Source: Cercospora beticola (lineage: Eukaryota; Ascomycota; Dothideomycetes; Mycosphaerellales; Mycosphaerellaceae). From it: 64,000 bases of DNA. The translations under genes and the position numbers were made by a program. The notes beneath the pieces were generated by a model. The model saw only the letters and a list, made by a program, of their open reading frames with translations. It was not told the DNA's origin and did not search any database. Each line of letters starts with the position of its first letter. Within the stretch, counting starts at the first letter, position 1. The stretch is from contig NC_088937.1 of NCBI RefSeq assembly GCF_033473495.1, positions 1,860,001-1,924,000 on the forward strand. Direction: 5' to 3'. Shown here piece by piece: positions 5,501 to 47,413 of this stretch.

Positions 5501-6688
5501 ATGCCTCCTCCGTCGAGTCGCATGACCAAGCAGCCCGTCCGGCCTGCACGATTCTTTCCGGGCAAAGCAGTAGCCGAGGATCCTGATTCTGAAGAAGAGG
5601 ACTCTGAGGACGAGGAAGACGAGCCATCTGCGCCAAAGGCCCCAGCACCAAAGGCGACATCGTTTCCGAAAAAGCTTGCGATTGGCGAAGTAAAGCCAGC
5701 ACCTAAAGCACCAGAGCAGAAACCTGAGGCGCCCGACCTCGATGGATTTGTCACTGCGTCAGAGTCGGAAGAGGACGATGAAGACGGAAGTGGTAGCGAA
5801 GAGGACAGCTCAGAAGAGGATGAGGATAGCAGCTCTGACGATGAGCCCAAAAAGCCCATGCTTGCACCAAAGTTCATTTCTAAGGCCAAGCGAGCACAAC
5901 AAAGCACGCCTGCAGTATCCGAGGAACAGAAAGCTGCAGAGGAGGAACGCCTACGGAAGGAGAAAGCAGACGCATTGTTACAAGCACAGGTTGAGAGGGA
6001 AATTGCTCTGAAAAAGGCTGGGAAGAAGAACTGGGACGATGACGATGTGCCGCAGGATGAAGTGGACGACACAGATGGATTGGATCCGGAGGCGGAAAGA
6101 GCTGCTTGGAAATTGCGAGAGCTGAAACGAGTGCAACGAGACCGCAATGCTCTCATCGAGAAAGAGAAGATGTTGGAAGAGATTGAGCGCCGACGAAACA
6201 TGACGGAAGAGGAGAGGGCAGCTGAAGATGCCGAGAAGATTGCGAAGCAGGAAGCGGAGCGTGAAGAAAGAGGACAGATGGGGCACATGCAAAAGTACTT
6301 TCACAAGGGCGCCTTCTTCGACCCAGACGCTGAGCAAGACGAGGAGGTCAAGGCTGCTCTCACGCGTTCTATTGCTGGGCGGAAGTTTGTGGATGAGGCG
6401 AGTGACAAGACTGTTCTGCCCGAGTATATGCAAATTCGGGATGCCACAAAGCTAGGCAAGAAGGGTAGAACGAAGTACAAAGATTTGAAGAATGAGGATA
6501 CAGGACGCTGGGGAACTGATATCGGGCGGAAGAAGCGAGACTATGATGGGCTGGACGACCGCTTCAAACCTGACGAGAGCCGTGGAACTGCGTATGACAG
6601 TACTGGAGCAAATTCTGCGCCCCTGGGTGAAAGGCGGAGGAGAGACGATGATGGCAGGAGAGATGAGAAGAGGCCACGATATGACTGA
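5501..6688 (+). CDS. MFAP1 family spliceosomal protein
   Basis: Intact single-exon frame of 395 residues. The N-terminal half is acidic, with E/D/S tracts. The C-terminal half is the MFAP1 domain: WKLRELKRVQRDR, EEIERRRNMTEEER, then GQMGHMQKYFHKGAFF, followed by YMQIRDATKLGKKGRTKYKD and NEDTGRWG. MFAP1 proteins associate with the precatalytic spliceosome (tri-snRNP stage) and are needed for pre-mRNA splicing. Length and domain order are typical of fungal members. Start ATG at 5501 (CAGCATGCC). Confidence 0.93.
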   Translation: MPPPSSRMTKQPVRPARFFPGKAVAEDPDSEEEDSEDEEDEPSAPKAPAPKATSFPKKLAIGEVKPAPKAPEQKPEAPDLDGFVTASESEEDDEDGSGSEEDSSEEDEDSSSDDEPKKPMLAPKFISKAKRAQQSTPAVSEEQKAAEEERLRKEKADALLQAQVEREIALKKAGKKNWDDDDVPQDEVDDTDGLDPEAERAAWKLRELKRVQRDRNALIEKEKMLEEIERRRNMTEEERAAEDAEKIAKQEAEREERGQMGHMQKYFHKGAFFDPDAEQDEEVKAALTRSIAGRKFVDEASDKTVLPEYMQIRDATKLGKKGRTKYKDLKNEDTGRWGTDIGRKKRDYDGLDDRFKPDESRGTAYDSTGANSAPLGERRRRDDDGRRDEKRPRYD

Positions 6689-9185: not shown

Positions 9186-12100
9186 ATGGCTGGATTTGAT
9201 GAACTCATAGAGCGCCTGCTCTATGATGTCGCGCTGTCGGGCTCGCAAGGTGCGTTTTCAATTTTGTCCAACCTCCCCACCAGCTGCCGCTGTCCATATC
9301 GCGAAAGTGCTCGGTTCGAGTCGGACTTATGTCCAGCACTTTTCGACACGATACTTCGAGTGCTTTACGTCCTCTTCCGCATACTGACCGCATTGCAGGT
9401 TACGACGCTGTGCGCTTCGAGAATGCCGTCCGTGCCTACTATGCTGAGAAGAATGGACTTCGCGAGGCCGACGAAGAGGAAGTGGAGCGGGATTCACTAT
9501 TTGCAGATGTGCCCCCTGTCAGCCAAATCACAGTCGACGAAAAGCTTCTCTCTGCGGTGCTCGAGTGGTTGTGCCGACATCCCGATGTTGAATTGCGACG
9601 TGTCAACCCAGCCGATGATCTCGACATTGCCGGCCGAAACTCTCTTAAGGAGTCGGCGACGGCTGAGATTGCACAGAAGCTCGCAGACAAGCGCATATTC
9701 ACGACCGACGACCGAATATGGCAGGCGATCGCTGGCCATGGACCGGACTTCAGGCGCATCCCGCCACTCGAGTTCGAGATTCTGTCCATTATTGCTGCGC
9801 ACAGCTCGACCGGAGTGCTGCAGCCTACTATTACCAAAATGACGGGGCAAGACAAGCGCTCGGTGCCAAAACGGACGGATAATCTTCAGGCTAAGGGCTA
9901 CATCACGAAGGAAACTGTTATCGGCAGCACTGGCAAGACGAGTCTGCTGAAGCTCATCCGCTTCTCAAAGACACAAAGTCTTGAAAAACCACCAGAAGAG
10001 TCCGCCATCAACAATCTCAAGCCCGTAATTCACTACGACAAAATGTACACCACAATGATGCGCATGCTGAAAGAGAATAACGGCATCGTCACCATGGCTG
10101 ACCTCCGCTATGGTCTTGGCTTTCAAATGGCGCTTAGATGGGAGACCAAAATTCTGGCCCGATGCGTTAGGCGTCTTGCAGAGGGCGGATGCATTCGTCG
10201 CGTAACTGCCAAGATGGCCGACCGAGAGGGCGAAGTGATTACCAGAGTGGGACAACCAGTCTGGCGCAAAGCAAAAGCCATTCAACTTATGCGGGAGCCA
10301 ACAGAGTACGATCGATTGCTGTGGGAGCAGTCCGATCCGAACAAAAAGATGCGAGCTAGTGACGATGAGGACGATGATCAAGCCGACACTGAAGGCGCTG
10401 CAGATGGTGCTGATTCCTCCGATGAGAACGATGATGGACTTATTGAAATTGGTACAATGAAAGAGGTCGGAACCACTGCTCAGCAAATTCAGGCCTTCAA
10501 ACGCCAAGCTGCTGCCACTGACACCGGTGACACGGACATCAATGATCTGGATAGACTCGAGGACCGTGTACCGCCTCACTGGAATCCTGATATCCCATTG
10601 GTGAACATCTTGTTCAACCAAATCAACGAGTCCGGTGAAGGTGGTATTAGCTCAACACAACTCCAGTCAGCGGTAGTCGGACCGCTCTGGAAGCGGCCCA
10701 TGGATGAGTCTCTTGCGCATTTGACCGATATCTGGCAGCATTCACAGCCCCCTCACCTGCGCCACTTGACTGTGGTCCGGGACACCGCTGTCTTCGGTCG
10801 CTCCGCTCAATTCAAGTACCGGACTTTGGCGAACTTCGAAAAGGCAGTTGCTGCTGGCAAAGCTGTGTGGGACGCTGTTCTAGACAACACCAGTTCAAAA
10901 GCTAAGAAGAATCCACTGGAGGAAAAGCCTGACTTGGATCAATGGGGTTTTCCAAAAGTGGCTCATAAGCTCTTAGCCGGTCGCGATGGCCGAGCGTCAC
11001 TCACCGATGGTCGCAAAGGTGTACTCGTAGATCGAATGCTTGCTGTTGGGGTCGATGAAGATGAGGTCGTCGTGGAGGACGATGAAGAATTCGTCCCGGC
11101 GGCACCCAGGCCACCAGTCGTCCGCGCAAAGGCGGCTTCGGGGCGCAGCAAGAAGAAATCTGAGTCTTGGGAATCAACAGCGTCGATTCCTCGCGCGAAA
11201 AGGAAAGGCCCAGTCTCGTATGGCGGCCTTAGCAAGAACGGCAAGAAAATGGGTCGACCGCCAAAGTCAGCTCAATTCGAGGTCGAGACTCCGACGCCTG
11301 ATGATGGCATCGCGAAGGCAAACAAGAGCCCGTATGCTATGCGTCAACGACCAAGTAGGGCTAGAGTGCCAGATGCCGAGATTTGTGAGCCCAGTGTCGA
11401 CCTCGAGGATACCGCAGACGATGAGGATGAGCCTCCAGCCACCCCGAAATCCCGTCGAATACCCTCGAAGTCACCTCTTGACAGCCGAAGGAAGTCTCCC
11501 AGGGCGTTCGAGATTCCATTGGCAGCAGCAGAAGGTGATCAGTCCGGCGATTTCAACACTCAGCAAGCATTGGATTCTCAACTTGCTGTCCTACAGGACA
11601 GTGGGGTCCTGGCGAGTCCAGGATCCGGTGCCAACTCAAGGCGAGGGCCCGGGACGGTAGACGACTACATTCCATTTCACAAGCCGCGCCGGATAAAGGA
11701 GAAAGAGTACGCGGAGTATGACCTTTTCGCCCAAAAGACGGCCGAGAACCGTGTTAGACTTGAGTTGAGTGTTAGTCGCAAGAGGTCCGCTGACGAAGCG
11801 CGTCTGGGCAGCCAGCATATCGCCGCAAAGAGGCAACGTGCGATTGACGGCACCATGCGGACCGTTCCCACCGATAATGGCGATCGTTCGCAAGAGTTGG
11901 TGGCGATGCAGTCTAGCGAATTGCCAGCTGACCGAGTTGCTGAGGTCAAATCTGAAATCCTGCGACGCGAAAGACCTGGCCTTTACATCAACCCACCAGG
12001 AGCCAAGAGTTTGAAGGCTGGAAACTTCGTCTCTCGTGGACGACCGAGAAATGCGAAGATTGCTGTGATCAGGTCCGTTCGTCTGCACGAGTTGGACTGG

Positions 12101-15100
12101 TTTCATGAGGACGATTCTCCACGATTCGCACCGGCGAAGCCACTTGGTAGGAGACGTACGGCCAAGGTTGGCAGTGCGCTCAAGATCTCGGACGACATCA
12201 TTGAAAACTCGGACTCTGATGCTGGAGAAATGAACGCTAAGAGGCAGAAGACGGCAGATACTATGCTCTCGGAGGGACCTGATAATGCTGAGTCCTTGGA
12301 TCAGGACTCAGGCTTTGGAGGTGAGCTAGCATCTGGATCTGGCGACTCTGTGCGCCGCTCTGCAACACCGCGAATGAATCAAGACACGGAAGTGTCTCAC
12401 GTCGGACTTGATGTTGCAGGCGTAGCAGAGAGTTCGCAGGTGCTGCTTGAAGGCGAATCTCGCCCCTCGCATGCCGAAACAGAGGAATCTCCAGCTGGGA
12501 ATGGTATCGACAAAGAAGCTCGTGGTATCACCGAAAGCTCTGCGCCCAAAGCGCTTGACCCACCGCTTCCAGTCACGCCGTCTATCACTGGAGACAAGGC
12601 CCAGAAACAGCCACTTCCAGTTCCGATTTCCGTCGCTGCAGCTCCGATCACGCCTATCTCAGGCGTCAACGTCAATCAAGGTATTGCGAGCAAGTCATCC
12701 GCGAGGATAAAAATCGCAGATACGACATCATTCTATCTTAGCAGGTTTGCACCAGAGCATAGGGCAACCCCACAGCAGCAATACCGACTTCTCTCAGCCA
12801 AGCCAGGCCGCAAGTCTAAGAGAGACCTGGAAGTTCTGGCTGAGCTTCAGAAGCTCATCGGATCTAAAGCGAGGGAGCCCATCACCACTCCCAAATTCAA
12901 GCCTACAGAGATTCCTGACCATGCAGCTTTTGCTGCTGGAACGTCTAACGCTCGTTACGCCACATCCAGCCCAGCTTTGACAAGTCAAAAGGCCAACAGT
13001 GCTGCTCTTCCGAACGAAGTTGGCGGCGTTGTCCAAACTCCGTTCGATGTACAACAACCGCTGTCTTCCACTCCCGAACAGGAGCGTACGAGTCGTGCGA
13101 AGATTCCAGAGAGTCCGCCCAAGCTTGCCAGAAACGATGCCTCGGTCGCAAGCGACGTGGCACCTGTAGAGGACGCCATCGAAACCGAGTCCTCCGATGA
13201 CAGTGAGACCGACAACGAAGACTGGACACACCTTGCTGTATCTTCTCACGGTGCTCCGAAACCTGCAAGCAAAGCTTCACAGCCCACCACGCAGAATCCG
13301 ATGCAGCAAGCCGTCCAGCCGTTACCCTCGAGAGCACCGCCCACAGCGAAGCGAGTGGCCACACCAACGACGAGCAATGAGTATTTCTCTACAGCATACG
13401 TAGATGCTCACCCGGACGAGACGTTCTATCATGTCGGCGCAGGCCGCTGGAAGCAAGGAATGCCGCCTCCGGACAGCTTTCACGAGACATTCCGTGGTCC
13501 TGGCGCTCGAAAAGTTTTGTCACAACGCAAGGCGACTAAGTCAACAACGTCGAACCACGCGTCCCAGAGTGCTATTCGCCAGCATGGATCGGTACAGACC
13601 CCCGCCAACGAATTGGCACCTCGAGACCATGCTACTCCGGCACCGTCTCGTGTCGTTCCGGAATTGACGCCTGAGGCGGCCTCGATTACTCCACGGAACA
13701 CAGCACCTGCGTGGCAAGCCTCTCCCTTGATGATCGTTCGGCCTTACGAGCAGCCTCGCGACAGCACGACAGAGATTTTTACCACGCAAAATGAAGAAGC
13801 TGTCTTGGGGGACCGAACGGAGCTCTCTGATGAGGATGGAGACGAGTACCAAAACCTCGGGAACGACGATCCTGCAGATGGCACCTTCGGAGATGATACC
13901 ATCGCGGAAGACGAAATGGATGTGGACATCTCCGAGCAGGCTGATGTCGAGATCGCGGAAGTAGGACCGACTCGTGTCCTGAAGAGCACAACCAACAAGA
14001 AATCTGGTCCGCCACGACTCGGTGGTAGCACCCAACTTCAGCGGCATGAGCTCATCCTCAATGCTGTGCGGCAATGTGGAGGCGTATTCCCAGGTGACAG
14101 CGAAGTGTGGTACGTGCTAACAACAGCTTGGAGAAAGATTCACAATCGTCTCCCCGACAAGCACACTGTTGAGCGTGCTGTGGAGCAGCTCATGACGGAG
14201 AAGAAGCTGAAGCGCTTTCGATTCCAGTTCAAATCCAAGCACAGCGCTGTGATCACCAAACAGATATTGGCTGAGCCGTCGGTCAACGCAGAAGATGAGA
14301 TCGTCACAGAGATGCGAAAGAAGATGATGAAATGTTATCCACTGCAATACCTACCCGAGGAAGTCGAAATCAACGAAGAACTACGAGAGACAGCGAGCTT
14401 CAAGTTTGGGCGCAAGAAGGCGAAGAATGGAGATGTCAGGCTCTCCCAGAACACCGTAACTTACATGAAGCGGCGCCACGATGAATTTCCTGAGGATCCA
14501 GATCTCGTCGTTCATCAGACTGCAGATGCTGCTGCCCGAGCTGATCGAGAGGCTCAGAGCAGAGGCTTTGCCAACGCTCAAGCTTACCGTAAGCATATGC
14601 TGGAAGTGCACAATGAGTCGAAAAACAAGGCCAATCTGAAGCATCAAGAAAAGAGGCGCAAAGAGCAGCGAGAAGCGGCCTTGGAAGACGCGCAGATTGC
14701 TGCCGAAATCGCGGCTGAGGAAGCAGAACTTTTAGGGGACGCAGCGGGGCAGATCCAGTTGGACAATTACCAACACGACCTTTCCGCTGCTATGCAACCT
14801 CGCCCACCGGGTTACAAGGCCAACATATCCCAGGAAATCAAGTTTGATAATGTATTGCCTAGAGGTAAATCCACCAGACCAGTGCGCAAGACAAGAAGAC
14901 CGCTGGGCTCAATCCGCGCCCCAGCACCCAAGCCACCTCGTAAAGTGTGGTGGGAAGATGGCAGGAAATCGCGGGAGCTTGCCGCAGCACATCTTATGTC
15001 TCCTGCACAAGTCTTCACCCAAAGCAATGGAACTTTTGGTACCAGCGGGCAAGGCTTGACGCAACAGGCTTTCAATTGGCGTGCGGCGCCTGGAACGCTG

Positions 15101-17074
15101 TCCAGCGAGCAGTACCAGAGAGAGACAGCCCGCGTTATTGCTCAGATCAACCAGGGAGATCATGTCAGCGGTGGAGCAGTTTTGGAATCAACGGCGATCG
15201 TCACGCTCAAGGTTCCTAAGGAGAAGCTCGATGCGATAGTGTCGTCCGAGCCCAGACCTGCAGGTCCACGTTTTGTCGACGATGATGACGGATCCGTGTT
15301 TGAAGCAGCGCCTACGCCAAGCTCTGTCGCCATCACTCCCGAGCCCGAACCAGAGCCTCCAAAGAAGCGCAGGAAATACACATCGAGAAAGAAGCGACAA
15401 GCAGATGGTGATGAAGCTGCTCGTGACTCTGACGAGGACTTTGTACCCGCTGCAGCTGGAGATAATCCCGAGGACCGTCGGCCTGTCAAACTCCCGAAAG
15501 TGAAGGGGTCTGGTGCTCGCGGAGTCAAGAAGGCTTTCACAACGAGAGACCGTCAAGCTCATCAGGATTTCAAGGACGTCGATCGTCTCGTGATTGCCAT
15601 CGCTCTGGTCAGTGCCATAGCTGGCGGTGTGAACCAGGACAAACTCAGCTGGAACTTGATTGCTCATGCATTGAGCTATCGATATGAAGGCGAGTTCCTC
15701 CGTCGTCGCTGGGGTCATTATGTGCGCAGTCGCAGACCTGATGTTGAGCAGCTCCGCGACGACATCAGGCAGCCTTTCTTGGAGGCCTATGAACGTGGCG
15801 AGCTTCCTGTCGTCAACTTTCAAGCTTCGCACGAGACTGACTGGCCAGCACTTTTCGAGTGGGTGCAGGCAACTATTCCGATGAATATGTCTCTCACTGT
15901 GGACGAGCATCCTGATGTCCCTGATCTTCCTGCCTCGAAAGAATTGGTACAGGAGAAGTTCACAGTCGAAGAGCGGGGCCAAGTGTTCGAGCTGAACAAG
16001 GATGATTATTTCACGACTATCACCGACCAGAATCGAAGACACTTGGCGCAACGATATCTTCTGGGCAACTTGTTGCCAGGCGAGATCAAGCCTGCTGAGA
16101 ACACGAACAAGGACTTGCTCCTTGCCAAGTCATGGGTCCGTGCGGTAGCCATGACAAAGCAGCATAGCTACAACGCTGAAGATGCGGCTCGGAAAATCAG
16201 TGTCCTGGGAAGCAAGGTCCTCAAGCAAGTCGCCAATGAAATGGTCGAATCTAAGATGTTCCTCCAGGACAAGAAAGGCAGGCAACAGCCAGGTCGGAAC
16301 TTCCAGATCCACCACGAAGTCTTGATTCAGTTCCGTAGATGGCCAGCCACGAAGGATTGTGACGAGCACCGTTACCTGTGTGCTTTAGCCCACTCTTGGT
16401 CAAGGATCAACGACTACTTCAAGCAGACCGACGCTCTGCCGCTTATCCCGGTCACTTCTGATCAGGATTACACAGTCTTGACCAACTTGTGTGCAACCGG
16501 CATGGTGAAATGCACCGTGATACTGCCAGAGACGAAGCAGGAATTCGATGCACCGGCTCCGAAACTCTCGCCCTGGGGCTATTCCGGCACCAATTACCAG
16601 ACAAAGCGTGCGAATCAAGATCAGCTCAAGTTCGATCTCGTCTACGTGAAGACATCTAATTACAGGTACGAGCCGGAGTTGAGAAATGATATCCCGATTC
16701 CTCTGGCACCCCAGGTTGTCGAGGGCGAGATCGGACCACGTATTCCCTTCTGGGTTGACATTCACGGTAACCTTGTCGATGACATCTGGGACATGTGCCT
16801 GAGGTCCATTCTGCACCTTCTGGTCTTCCGCTCCGGCGAACGTGCTGTCACCATGCAGCAGGCCCACAATCATAAACTCTGGCAGTGGGAAATCGAGTTG
16901 ATTCTGCATTGGATGGAGCAGACGGGTCTGGCTCGGAGATGTGGTGAGGGCGAGGAGATTAATGGCATTTGGACTGGAGGATGGACTGCTAGTGATTGGT
17001 GGTTTTGTGCTTTCTTGCCTGAGATGATTACGTGGGAGCCTCCGCAGCAGAGTGGGTTGAGTGAGCTCGATTGA
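9186..17074 (+). CDS. TFIIIC largest subunit, B-block binding (Tfc3/tau138 type)
   Basis: Two exons: 9186-9249 and 9399-17074, with a 149-bp GTGCGT...CAG intron carrying an ACTGAC branch. The join gives LYDVALSGSQ-GYDAVRFENAV. The protein is about 2,579 residues, larger than many homologues, because of long charged, low-complexity linkers. The B-block domain is at about residues 142-195 (LEFEILSIIAAHSSTGVLQPTI). A second winged-helix-like region follows at about 240-310, and the C-terminal ~650 residues form a second conserved block ending GIWTGGWTASDWWFCAFLPE. This subunit recognises the internal B box of tRNA genes to recruit TFIIIB and RNA polymerase III. The second exon is open over 7.6 kb with no frame problem. 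The shorter start at 9329 lies inside the intron and would lose the conserved N-terminus. Confidence 0.88.
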
Positions 17075-38380: not shown

Positions 38381-39428
38381 TTTGTTGCTCGGCTTCTGCA
38401 CAGAGTTGTCGACAGAAGGTGCATGTAGTCGTGTCTCAGAGGCGTTGCGCCTCCCAAGGCGAAAGAGCAGAGAGTCGATGCGTCGCGGTTACTTTGACGC
38501 AACAACAGTGAGCCGCAGACATTTGCAAACGCTACGCTGCTGGACCGCAGCTCATGCCGTGGGTTGATAAGGCTCCATCCCTTCGAAGCAATTGTGCTTT
38601 CCGGTGTTTGCTTTGGGTATCAGCTTAGACAAGATGGAGGCATTGAGCTGAACGTGCATATATCGCGATCTCATGTTAATATGCGACAAACTCTGTACCA
38701 GCCGTACTCATTGATCCGTCGTCATCGCTCAAAAGGAGCGGTCCATCTACTGAGAATCAAGCTCTCGCTGTTCGTCACGAGTGCTTTCGGACCATCTGCC
38801 GCCCAAGCTGGGTATGCCAGGGCCTGGAGAGATCAGTTGTGATATTTGCAGTAAGTAGAAAGGTCTCTAAAAAGCGGCCTGGGCCTGGTAGCTGTGGGAG
38901 ATAATCCGAATACTTGTCGGGAAAATCAACATCCGAAAAGTGTGGAAATTTGAACCATTCGATGGGGCAGGCAGGAAGGGAAGATGACTTGGACGGCATG
39001 TTTGCGTAGCTTTTTGAAGGCCAATGACCGCAACAGTTCTAGAAATACTGTTAGACCGTTGTGTGCGGAGAAGTGCAGTCGAGGTAGATGATGGTAGCAG
39101 GGTGTGAAAGATTCAACCCGCCATCTGAATTGTAGTCGGAGACATGTTTCATTTCGCAGTAGCTGTTCCAGATCACCATGGTTCCTCGCAATGGGCAATG
39201 ACTGCCCTGAGTCTGCGTTGGGGAATGCAATATCGAGTGGTGACAAAAATTGGAGATTTTGAATGGCAACGACGGATGGTTTTTCGCGGAAAATCCGTCA
39301 TCGCCAATGCAGGCCGACGGACCTCTCCCCGGTACGCATTGAAGTGGTTTGATTGGGTCAAATTCGCTTGGCGGGCTCCTCAAAATTTGTGCTTCATATT
39401 TGCGTAACAACATCACACTTTCATCGAA
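38381..39428. other. gene-poor region with tRNA-Gly-like fragments
   Basis: No convincing protein gene. At 39259-39277 a 19-base exact inverted copy of the anticodon region of the tRNA-Gly gene (39451-39469) occurs. Directly after it, 39277-39327 resembles a degenerate direct copy of the same tRNA (TGGTTT, GGAAAATCCGTC, GCCA, GACGG). Confidence 0.45.
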
Positions 39429-39464
39429 GCATCGTTGGTTTAGTGGTAAAATCCGTCGTTGCCA

Positions 39465-39491
39465 TTCAATTCACTTGAATTAGATGCCGCG
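39465..39491 (+). other. canonical-position tRNA intron (27 nt)
   Basis: Begins one base after the anticodon GCC, the usual site of nuclear tRNA introns cut by the tRNA splicing endonuclease. It contains a small TTCAA/TTGAA inverted repeat. Confidence 0.75.
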
Positions 39492-39508
39492 TCGACGGGC
39501 CCCGTGTT

Positions 39509-39564
39509 GTAAGCAGCTGCCTCATAACCGTTCAAACAAGGATTCAATACTAACAGATCACCAG
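39509..39564 (+). other. spliceosomal-type intron inside the tRNA T-loop
   Basis: 56 bases with donor GTAAGC, branch sequence TACTAAC 8 bases before the final AG dinucleotide, and acceptor CACCAG. Length and signals match mRNA introns elsewhere in the window. It starts and ends exactly where excision regenerates a standard tRNA T-loop; no target-site duplication is visible. It contains CGTTCAAAC, which weakly resembles a B-box core. Confidence 0.8.
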
Positions 39565-39592
39565 CGATTCACGGACGATGCAATTGAATTTC

Positions 39593-39597
39593 TTTTT
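39593..39597 (+). terminator. Pol III terminator
   Basis: T5 run 10 bases after the discriminator base of the tRNA-Gly gene. Confidence 0.7.
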
Positions 39598-45702: not shown

Positions 45703-47413
45703 ATGCCGACCGAATTCTTAACCTCCCGGCAGATCGCCGAACAGACTCTTCAAGATGTCCTTAACGACTTCGACATCAAACTCCCAAGCCATGTCCAAAA
45801 TTTTGCCATTGATTTTCCCTACCCTATTCCATCTCCTGAAGAGACAAACTCGGAGAAGCTCAATTTATCTCTCGTTGGCGCAATACCGGCTTGCGCCAAT
45901 GCCATTATCGCAGCAGCGATCTTCCAGGCTCGTGGCGGTGCCGCCCAACGAGTAGGAATCGATTTGAGGAGAGGCCATAATTACATCGATCCAGACATCG
46001 GGATGACACCGTCCCTCAACCGCCAGGAGGTTCCTCTGGACGTTGTCTTTGGGAATCCTTTCTTGAAGAACATCTACGAAACCGAAGATCACAAGTATGC
46101 AGTGCTCAGTGCCGTGTATGTGGACCTCGTCTATCAGTGGAGCGCATTTCTGGGTTGTTCCGTCGCGCAGAGCGCCGTCGCAGAAGCTGTCAAATCCTGG
46201 AATGCAACTGGTAAGCCTGATAAGATCGTGTGGCCGTCACCTGGTGAGACACTCGCTAATGCACAGTTTTCTAACCTCACCAGATCTGGAAGAAGCAGCC
46301 GCAGCGGCTGGGTTGCCCATGGCCATCTGCCAAACCGAAGAGTCTTGGAAACGTCATCCACAGGGAGTAGAACTTGGCAAGAAGCCGTGGGTACCAGTTG
46401 AAGAAGTGCCTTCCGTCCCTGCAGAGAATGATTCTCTCCCCCTTCCGCTCCCGTGTCATCCAGCTCGACCTCTCTCGGGCCTCCGAGTTCTGTGCCTCAC
46501 GCACGCCATCGCTGGGCCTTCAGCAGGTCGCACGCTGGCAGAGCATGGAGCATCGGCTCTGCAGGTAATGTTCACACATGGATTTGAACATCTATTTGTG
46601 TATTCCTACGCAAGCCTCGGGTTATCAACGACTCGCCTCAGTCTACACAAAGAAGCCGATCGTGCAAGATTACGGACGCTGGTCAAAGACGCCCACGTGT
46701 GGATCGACAGCTACAGACCTGATGCTATCGCAAAGTTCGGCTTCAGCAATTCAGACCTGCACCATATCAATCATAGCCTGATCATATGCCGAGTAACATG
46801 CTACGGCACCAGTGGACCATGGAACTCCAAGCCTGGGTTCGACATGCAAGGTTCCTCGTCCAGCGGAATGATGACCCTCATGGGACAGGGTGTAGGCGAC
46901 GGCCAACCTCAGTGGCCACCAGGCATGGTAATCAACGACTACACAACGGGCTATGCAGCGGCCTTGGCGATCCAGAGCATCATCGTGAAGCGAGTGCAAG
47001 GCGAAGTCGGAGCTCAACATGGCTGGCTCGTAAGCCCAAGCTTAACTGGTACTGCCATGGCGATCTCGAAGTACTTCAAGACATCTCGTTTCAGCCCGCC
47101 AACTGATCAAGAAGGCTCTCATGCTTTGCCGCCAGAGACGCTCGAAGGGGACACGGGCCTTGGCTATTTGAAAACATTGGCTTCTCTGCCGAAGCTCAGT
47201 GTTACTCCTATCTTCTATGAGGTTGGGTTGCTGGGTTCCTTGGGCTCAGCGCTACCTCGGTTCCCTGGGTATGATGCCGATTTTGATCTGGAAGATGCGA
47301 CACCAATGAAGAAGGAAGATGTGGCAGAACAGGTGGGAGCTCCAAAGGCCCAGCGTTTAGAAGAGCTGAGAAAGCTAGCAAAGGCCTACAAAGCAAGGAG
47401 GGACCGGACCTGA
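45703..47413 (+). CDS. CaiB/BaiF family (class III) CoA-transferase-like protein
   Basis: Two exons: 45703-46210 and 46284-47413, with a 73-bp GTAAGC...CACCAG intron; the join gives VKSWNAT-DLEEAAAAAGLP. 545 residues. The C-terminal half is the family core: PLSGLRVLCLTHAIAGPSAGRTLAEHGA, HVWIDSYRPDAIAKFGFS, CYGTSGPWNSKPGFDMQ, then GMVINDYTTGYAAALAIQ. Class III enzymes move CoA between acyl groups using an aspartate in the core. Fungal members are often clustered with metabolic genes, but the substrate is unknown. It is the first gene of the accessory block and might supply or trim acyl-CoA for the PKS. Confidence 0.85.

Follow-up and report, generated by a model that had tools for sequence, protein, structure and literature searches.

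GT-AG inserts resembling spliceosomal introns interrupt nuclear tRNA genes of Cercospora beticola

Here we describe tRNA genes in the genome of Cercospora beticola, at least 30 in number and belonging to 17 kinds, that are interrupted by at least 43 inserts, 42 of them with GT-AG ends; one of these genes is a tRNA-Gly(GCC) gene with an insert in its T-loop. We propose, with a probability of roughly 0.9, that these inserts are U2-type spliceosomal introns lying in working nuclear tRNA genes. Five features visible in the sequence lead to the U2-type reading: GT-AG ends, an extended 5′ site, a branch motif at fixed spacing, a uniform length, and the recovery of a tRNA upon removal of the inserts. 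On this evidence, the machinery that splices mRNA probably also has to splice tRNAs in C. beticola. We judge it likely that the tRNA set has been colonized to such an extent that initiator-Met, Phe, Cys, Ile(AAT), and Ser(GCT) tRNAs are made only via the spliceosome, with two splicing systems acting on one molecule and with some introns that may themselves hold the B-box promoter. If so, a single tRNA would carry up to four spliceosomal introns and one endonuclease intron, perhaps likewise in fungal relatives.

RESULTS

An interrupted tRNA-Gly(GCC) gene in the window

The window, that is, the whole 64-kb stretch of DNA analyzed (C3:1860001-1924000), contains a tRNA-Gly(GCC) gene at 39429-39582, read directly from the sequence on the + strand, as are all the elements described here. 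The first exon (39429..39464) comprises the 5′ strand of the acceptor stem, the D arm, an intact A box, and the anticodon stem, with GCC at 39461-39463, and runs up to base 37; it is followed by a 27-nt intron in the canonical position of the anticodon loop (39465..39491; i(37,27) in ARAGORN notation), as the sequence-only reading of this DNA had said. The second exon (39492..39508) supplies the 3′ strand of the anticodon stem, the variable loop, the 5′ strand of the T-stem, and the first TT of the T-loop, and the third (39565..39582) supplies the CGATT of the T-loop, the 3′ strands of the T-stem and acceptor stem, and the discriminator A; all three exons agree with the cloverleaf that ARAGORN draws after removal of the insert. 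Between the second and third exons lies the 56-nt GT-AG intron of spliceosomal type (39509..39564), which reads GTAAGC...TACTAACAGATCACCAG, ending CACCAG, and whose limits are set by a GTAAGC 5′ site, a CAG 3′ site, a deletion scan, the junction of an uninterrupted paralogue, and the splice signals of the whole set. It includes a branch-site-like TACTAAC (39548..39554), whose putative branch A, at 39553, lies 11 nt from the end of the intron, and the same class of motif at the same spacing recurs in 43/43 inserts. Base for base, this is the insert that had been noted earlier, down to its three motifs and the T-loop that its removal restores.

Once the 56 nt are taken out, ARAGORN reports tRNA-Gly(gcc) with a score of 113.4 and the 27-nt anticodon intron; on the unspliced gene it reports nothing, and standard ARAGORN and Rfam scans of the 64-kb window gave 0 tRNA matches each. 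When every deletion of 35 to 90 nt was scanned, the GT-AG product was unbeaten in ARAGORN score among 3,839 distinct products. When L003, the uninterrupted paralogue, serves as the reference, a single one of the 2,301 boundary pairs tested rejoins without a mismatch, and this pair is the GT-AG one; longer flanks agree.

Upstream of the gene lies a TATA-like element, CATATTT (39395..39401), with ATAT starting at −33, and a T5 run resembling an RNA polymerase III (Pol III) terminator lies 10 nt past the gene end (39593..39597); both were read from the sequence and weighed against the frequency of such elements at tRNA genes and in control flanks. Seen as a Pol III type 2 gene, the locus thus has a whole A box and a T-run terminator near its 3′ end, and the insert splits its B box, so that contiguous A and B boxes are lacking. 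This break in the B box, too, had been recognized from the letters alone. The further claim that expression would need an unusual route is overstated in view of the intact A box, the ATAT at −33, and the T5 run 10 nt downstream. Elsewhere in the window, an open reading frame at 46097-47413 has a 100% match to C. beticola CB0940_02933 that covers 86% of the query.

Interrupted tRNA genes across the genome

By kind, the interrupted genes are Gly(GCC) (3), Ser(CGA) (1), Ser(TGA) (1), Ser(GCT) (2), Leu(CAG) (1), Leu(CAA) (1), Met(CAT) (2), initiator Met (2), Arg(CCT) (1), Arg(ACG) (2), Ala(TGC) (1), Cys (2), Phe (3), Val(AAC) (3), Lys(CTT) (1), Pro (1), and Ile(AAT) (3). There is one insert in 21 genes, two in seven, and four in two, both Ser(GCT), and many of the 30 genes also have anticodon introns. 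The inserts lie in the acceptor, D, variable, and T regions, and a first exon can consist of 4 nt of tRNA plus a leader. After removal of the inserts, ARAGORN finds a tRNA in 30/30 genes versus 3/30 before, and the identity it gives to those 3 is unlike that suggested by their exons. A spliceosomal-type intron in a tRNA T-loop, as originally put forward for the window gene, is thus borne out by the splice signals and by recurrence in 30 genes; with 43 inserts genome-wide, the idea of a single event in one Pol III gene falls away.

The loci were gathered with a tRNA covariance model (44 matches; the best 62 of 905 candidates were scored), with concatenated tRNA queries, and with D-arm patterns; two further patterns contained intron motifs and gave L038 and L121. 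The isotype called by ARAGORN after splicing differs from ours in five genes, Leu(CAA), one Cys, Pro, and two Ile (L034, L096, L090, L092, and L094), because the program places the anticodon intron elsewhere; the names of these five are our own reading, as is the label "initiator" given to the two Met genes whose T-arm is GATCGAAAC, and the Ser(CGA) assignment of L038 follows the anticodon CGA read by ARAGORN. Among the interrupted genes found, no insert outside the anticodon loop lacked a GT start. A query of hand-typed eukaryotic tRNA sequences gave 0 matches, a pattern for the Gly intron hit 6 stretches in viral contigs, none of which continues as a tRNA, and several stretches brought up by the D-arm or motif patterns could not be read as interrupted tRNA genes (L097, L098, L100, L102-L110, L112, and L122-L125).

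Several observations stand beside this set. The two Ser(GCT) genes, L111 (C6:1977.3k) and L121 (C5:2687.0k), each have four spliceosomal-type introns plus an anticodon intron; intron 1 of L111 ends in CG and its counterpart in the sister gene L121 in AG, and given this CG end L111 may be dead or mis-spliced. A tRNA-like family starting GGGGYTGTGGTCYAAYGGTAAGA (L032, L048, L053, and L054), partly clustered on C5 near 2.689 Mb, has long and varied inserts in the anticodon region. Three AT-rich, mitochondrial-like tRNAs for Ile, Lys, and Leu (L018, L026, and L029; C2:3502.6-3503.1k) sit inside a 5.2-Mb contig, in what is probably a mitochondrial insertion. Finally, L099 (C1:471.4k, two copies), L102, and L106 look like RNA genes, with A-box-like starts and T runs, and match no Rfam family at E 0.1; they may be Pol III RNAs that escaped annotation or tRNAs with many interruptions.

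Splice signals of the inserts

Since L038 and L121 were found through intron motifs and boundaries were set with GT-AG in mind, the counts that follow are not blind: the 43 inserts are 51 to 61 nt long, 42 of them have GT-AG ends, 41 have G at +5, 39 begin with GTRNG, and all 43 contain a branch-like YTNAY whose A lies 10 to 14 nt from the 3′ end. The branch motif is CTAAC in 25 inserts, CTAAT in 8, CTGAC in 6, CTTAC in 2, and TTGAC and TTAAC in 1 each; in random 55-mers from the window, the chance level is 1.1% for CTAAC and 8.8%, over a wider range, for CTRAY. These signals are shared with protein-gene introns of the same genome, in a small and partly selected sample of five (46 to 95 nt), three of which came from protein alignments to window genes and two (L123 and L124, taken as coding by eye) were met via a CTAAC pattern. 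Their 5′ sites are GTAAGC, GTAAGT, GTATGT, GTAAGA, and GTGAGT, all five end in CAG, and 4/5 contain CTAAC or CTAAT.

Exactness of the intron boundaries

The ARAGORN deletion scan was run on the first 35 inserts. The GT-AG product took rank 1 in 18 of them (ties included, with an equal-scoring other product for L071, L084, and the second intron of L094), ranks 2 to 5 in 7, and rank 22 or beyond in 10. In these 10 low-ranked cases, ARAGORN accepted between 110 and 2,974 different deletions and hence did not discriminate. A second, paralogue-based test covered the 14 inserts for which there is an intact relative, at two flank settings. With flanks of 14+18 nt, 9/14 inserts had the GT-AG boundary among their best solutions; the test was repeated with 8+8 nt because divergent flanks beyond the junction dominated the longer setting, and this then held for 12/14, with a single best product in 10 (for L096, only 13 nt upstream entered this run, and the GT-AG solution lies inside a tie set). 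Two Val genes, L074 and L075, fail at both flank lengths; the sole uninterrupted Val gene differs at the junction. Closely spaced insertion sites converge: in Val, one identical 74-nt product results from three introns whose two positions differ by 2 nt, and in Ser(GCT) two introns offset by 3 nt leave an identical junction. The deletion scan, the motif baseline, and the paralogue test together rule out chance, and 43 inserts of differing sequence at structurally exact places rule out an assembly artifact.

Transcription signals and the choice of polymerase

Signals expected of Pol III surround interrupted and uninterrupted genes alike. ATAT or TATA occurs at −70 to −20 in 22/25 interrupted and 19/25 uninterrupted genes with enough flank, versus 0 to 40% in controls taken from flanks 200 to 850 nt away at the same loci. 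A run of five or more T lies within 50 nt downstream of 16/26 interrupted and 18/25 uninterrupted genes (controls at least 200 nt away, 0 to 3 of 15 to 18 around interrupted and 0 to 6 of 25 around uninterrupted genes); runs of four or more T within the same distance are rarer at interrupted genes (18/26 versus 24/25). The A box is split in the Val and initiator-Met genes, and a contiguous B-box match is found in 20/28 interrupted genes, although in two of the 20 (L038 and L086) it lies solely inside the intron (GTTCAATTC) and three Phe genes need the last G of the intron for it. The eight genes without a match are the three Gly genes, L069, L088, L090, and the two initiator-Met genes, the last two only because of the sequence of their T-arm. 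An external B box downstream is present at 1/19 interrupted loci with enough flank.

Splicing by the spliceosome is known above all from RNA polymerase II (Pol II) transcripts, and the inserts could be spliceosomal introns of tRNAs that are released from capped, spliced, and trimmed Pol II precursors, at least where the A or B box is split, as in the Val, initiator-Met, and Gly(GCC) genes; the two Met(CAT) genes L035 and L059, which have no run of four or more T before 85 nt downstream, would suit this route as well. We nevertheless consider it unlikely, as T runs and upstream ATAT/TATA elements accompany both classes of genes, as 20/28 interrupted genes have a contiguous B-box match, with the exceptions in its location just given, and as the U6 RNA of Schizosaccharomyces pombe sets a precedent for an mRNA-type intron in a Pol III RNA (PMC10484740). 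Since the A box, the TATA-like element, and the T run are common to the uninterrupted genes, TATA-assisted transcription by Pol III is the simpler reading, if an unproven one.

Some features of individual loci bear mention next to these counts. In L038 (Ser(CGA)) and L086 (Arg(ACG)), the intron splits the B box of the exons yet holds a perfect B box at intron offset 4; none of the other 41 introns has one, and shuffled introns do in 0.6% of cases, so judging from sequence these two introns may have taken over the promoter element. Behind both L035 and L059, where the first run of four or more T comes at least 85 nt downstream, a similar stretch follows (CGCACTGGTTGTGGTTTA...CATGACCGAGATGTCT), possibly a co-transcribed RNA, for which Rfam gave no match besides tRNA at E 0.1. 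The three Ile(AAT) genes (L092, L094, and L095) have conserved 60-nt 3′ trailers, 85 to 93% alike versus 62 to 70% for their second introns and 55 to 64% for their upstream flanks, with a T run about 49 nt downstream. The window also contains, about 22 kb from the tRNA gene and separate from it, a gene for a TFIIIC subunit with a B-block-binding domain (9329..17074, + strand; PF04182 B-block_TFIIIC, E 1.5e-17), noted here for its bearing on the recognition of a split B box. The window further includes a gene for the pre-mRNA processing factor MFAP1 (5501-6688); the presence of both genes in the window of an interrupted tRNA gene is probably a coincidence.

Conservation of exons and possible dependence on interrupted genes

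With the 154-nt window gene as the query, five tRNA-Gly loci, and no others, were matched in the genome. Two of them, L002 and L004, have GT-AG inserts of 57 and 52 nt with a branch-like motif at the same T-loop base as the window gene, and the other full Gly(GCC) genes, L003 and L005, are uninterrupted, so that 3/5 full copies have the insert and intact copies, which the sequence-only reading had asked after, do exist. Its proposal of a recent insertion fares worse: over its first and last 25 nt, the product is 100% identical among the three interrupted genes, whose T-loop introns are only 59 to 63% alike and whose 60-nt flanks are 48 to 65% alike (random 55-mers, 48%, SD 4%). An identical position with such diverged introns means that the insert of the window gene is neither unique nor young. 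At L003 (C9:1838.9-1839.2k), a 3′ tRNA fragment with a T-loop GT-AG insert of its own stands behind the uninterrupted gene, which might reflect a past loss of the intron or gene conversion.

In other kinds, the exons have changed in pairs. By eye, the acceptor strands of the Cys genes pair as GCTCTTC/GGAGAGC in one and GCTCCTC/GGGGAGC in the other, in a stem that forms only with the internal intron gone, and those of Phe genes as GTCGCTT/AAGCGAC and GTCGCCT/AGGCGAC; compensatory changes, also judged by eye and uncounted, occur in the acceptor stem of Arg(ACG) and in the T-stem and acceptor stem of the two initiator-Met genes. Such paired stem changes account for the low identity of the last 25 nt of the product in initiator Met (72%) and Cys (84%).

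These patterns bear on whether the interrupted copies are merely unspliced pseudogenes or relics, with intact tRNAs supplied by other genes. With L003 and L005 at hand, the window copy need not be active; the insert-bearing fragment behind L003, the fragments of Lys and Pro genes, and the broken 3′ splice site of L111 would also fit decay. Yet exons were kept, or changed pairwise, while introns and flanks diverged, splice signals are intact in 42/43 inserts, and intact genes for initiator Met, Phe, and Cys were not found among the candidates scored, which together make us regard general decay as quite improbable. Searches with spliced sequences as queries, of which the best candidates were scored, returned no full-length uninterrupted copy of initiator Met, Phe, Ile(AAT), or Cys; these searches were not exhaustive, since a third Phe gene (L093) surfaced only via a D-arm pattern, and these four kinds are the ones used as whole spliced queries. 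Uninterrupted Ile(GAT) (L009) and Met(CAT) (L010) genes, different in sequence, do exist, which leaves initiator Met, Phe, and Cys as the cleanest cases. That essential tRNAs depend on spliceosomal introns therein seems fairly likely to us.

Endonuclease-type introns and introners

Eukaryotic anticodon introns may lack a strict bulge-helix-bulge (BHB), and if so, the following test is a weak one: a canonical BHB is formed at 0/35 junctions, and at least 3 of the 4 central-helix pairs at 5/35, versus 15% under the null. It is nonetheless highly improbable that the inserts are noncanonical introns of the archaeal or algal kind, cut at a BHB by the tRNA endonuclease, since this view, besides the missing BHB excess, leaves the GT-AG ends and the fixed-spacing branch motif unexplained; what it has in its favor is that genes of Cyanidioschyzon merolae are interrupted at similar D- and T-arm positions, according to PMC9602550. 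Between tRNA kinds, intron middles have a mean identity of 0.50 (0.69 for the best cross-kind pair), near the random value in what is a rough comparison of sequences of differing length.

Introners have been reported in Dothideomycetes, and the sequence-only reading had accordingly pointed to an introner-like family, but a recent jump of such a mobile element into one tRNA gene has hardly any probability left: the genome search with the 154-nt query found no second copy of the 56-nt sequence, the inserts of the three interrupted Gly genes share one position and are diverged, and introns of different tRNA kinds are about as unlike each other as random sequence.

DISCUSSION

If the inserts are spliceosomal introns, as we favor, the route to a mature tRNA could run as follows. 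Pol III would transcribe the gene from the A box and the upstream TATA-like element and end at the T run, by which a split B box would be tolerated. The spliceosome would take out the T-loop intron, a step that would have to come before folding of the T arm and before RNase P, RNase Z, and the enzymes that modify the T-loop could act; the anticodon intron would be removed separately by the tRNA endonuclease and a ligase. As no intact gene for initiator Met, Phe, or Cys was found, translation would rest directly on the spliceosome.

Textbooks treat tRNA and mRNA introns as separate worlds with separate enzymes. A spliceosome-dependent tRNA set would couple translation directly to splicing, would show Pol III transcripts to be spliceosome substrates on a large scale, and would explain why such tRNA genes are overlooked by annotation programs. 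It would also offer an unusual view of intron gain, as tRNA exons are short, strongly conserved, and paralogous. Moreover, it opens to experiment the questions of whether a cap, Pol II, or long exons are required for spliceosomal splicing and of the order in which the spliceosome acts on one RNA relative to RNase P and the tRNA endonuclease. Among the papers listed from the open-access PMC literature, none reports a spliceosomal intron in a tRNA gene, and none joins introner-like elements with tRNA.

Canonical eukaryotic tRNA introns sit at position 37/38 and are removed by the tRNA endonuclease. The window gene has one of these too, of 27 nt, and its second insert differs from it in position, ends, uniformity of length, and branch motif. 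The introner-like elements of Dothideomycetes resemble the present case as a bulk gain of spliceosomal introns in relatives and differ from it in that no repeated family is seen here. Introns in the structural RNA genes of fungi are also known from the nuclear rDNA of lichen fungi, where most are unable to self-splice, according to the abstract of PMC8527467; these, however, belong to a Pol I rRNA and not to tRNA.

Two precedents come closer, and neither is reported, in the parts of the sources relied on here, as a spliceosomal intron in a tRNA. The nuclear tRNA genes of C. merolae have noncanonical introns in the D, T, and anticodon arms (PMC9602550 and PMC3978253); within those same parts, the disrupted genes are treated as BHB-mediated, TATA-driven and TFIIIC-independent transcription is suggested (PMC3978253), and little is said to be known about how the D- and T-arm introns are processed (PMC9602550). 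Like the genes described here, they can have several introns per gene outside position 37/38, and upstream TATA-like elements and T stretches accompany the disrupted genes. The difference is that few protein genes have spliceosomal introns in the alga, as far as these sources go, whereas in C. beticola the inserts have GT-AG ends and a branch motif without an excess of BHB, and a TFIIIC B-block gene is present. The second precedent is the U6 snRNA gene of S. pombe, in which, according to PMC10484740, an mRNA-type intron interrupts a Pol III RNA. The likeness is that of a spliceosomal intron in a short noncoding RNA transcribed by Pol III; the difference is one of scale and setting, with one intron in one snRNA gene there and, in C. 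beticola, dozens of candidate introns in tRNA genes, side by side with anticodon introns of the endonuclease type.
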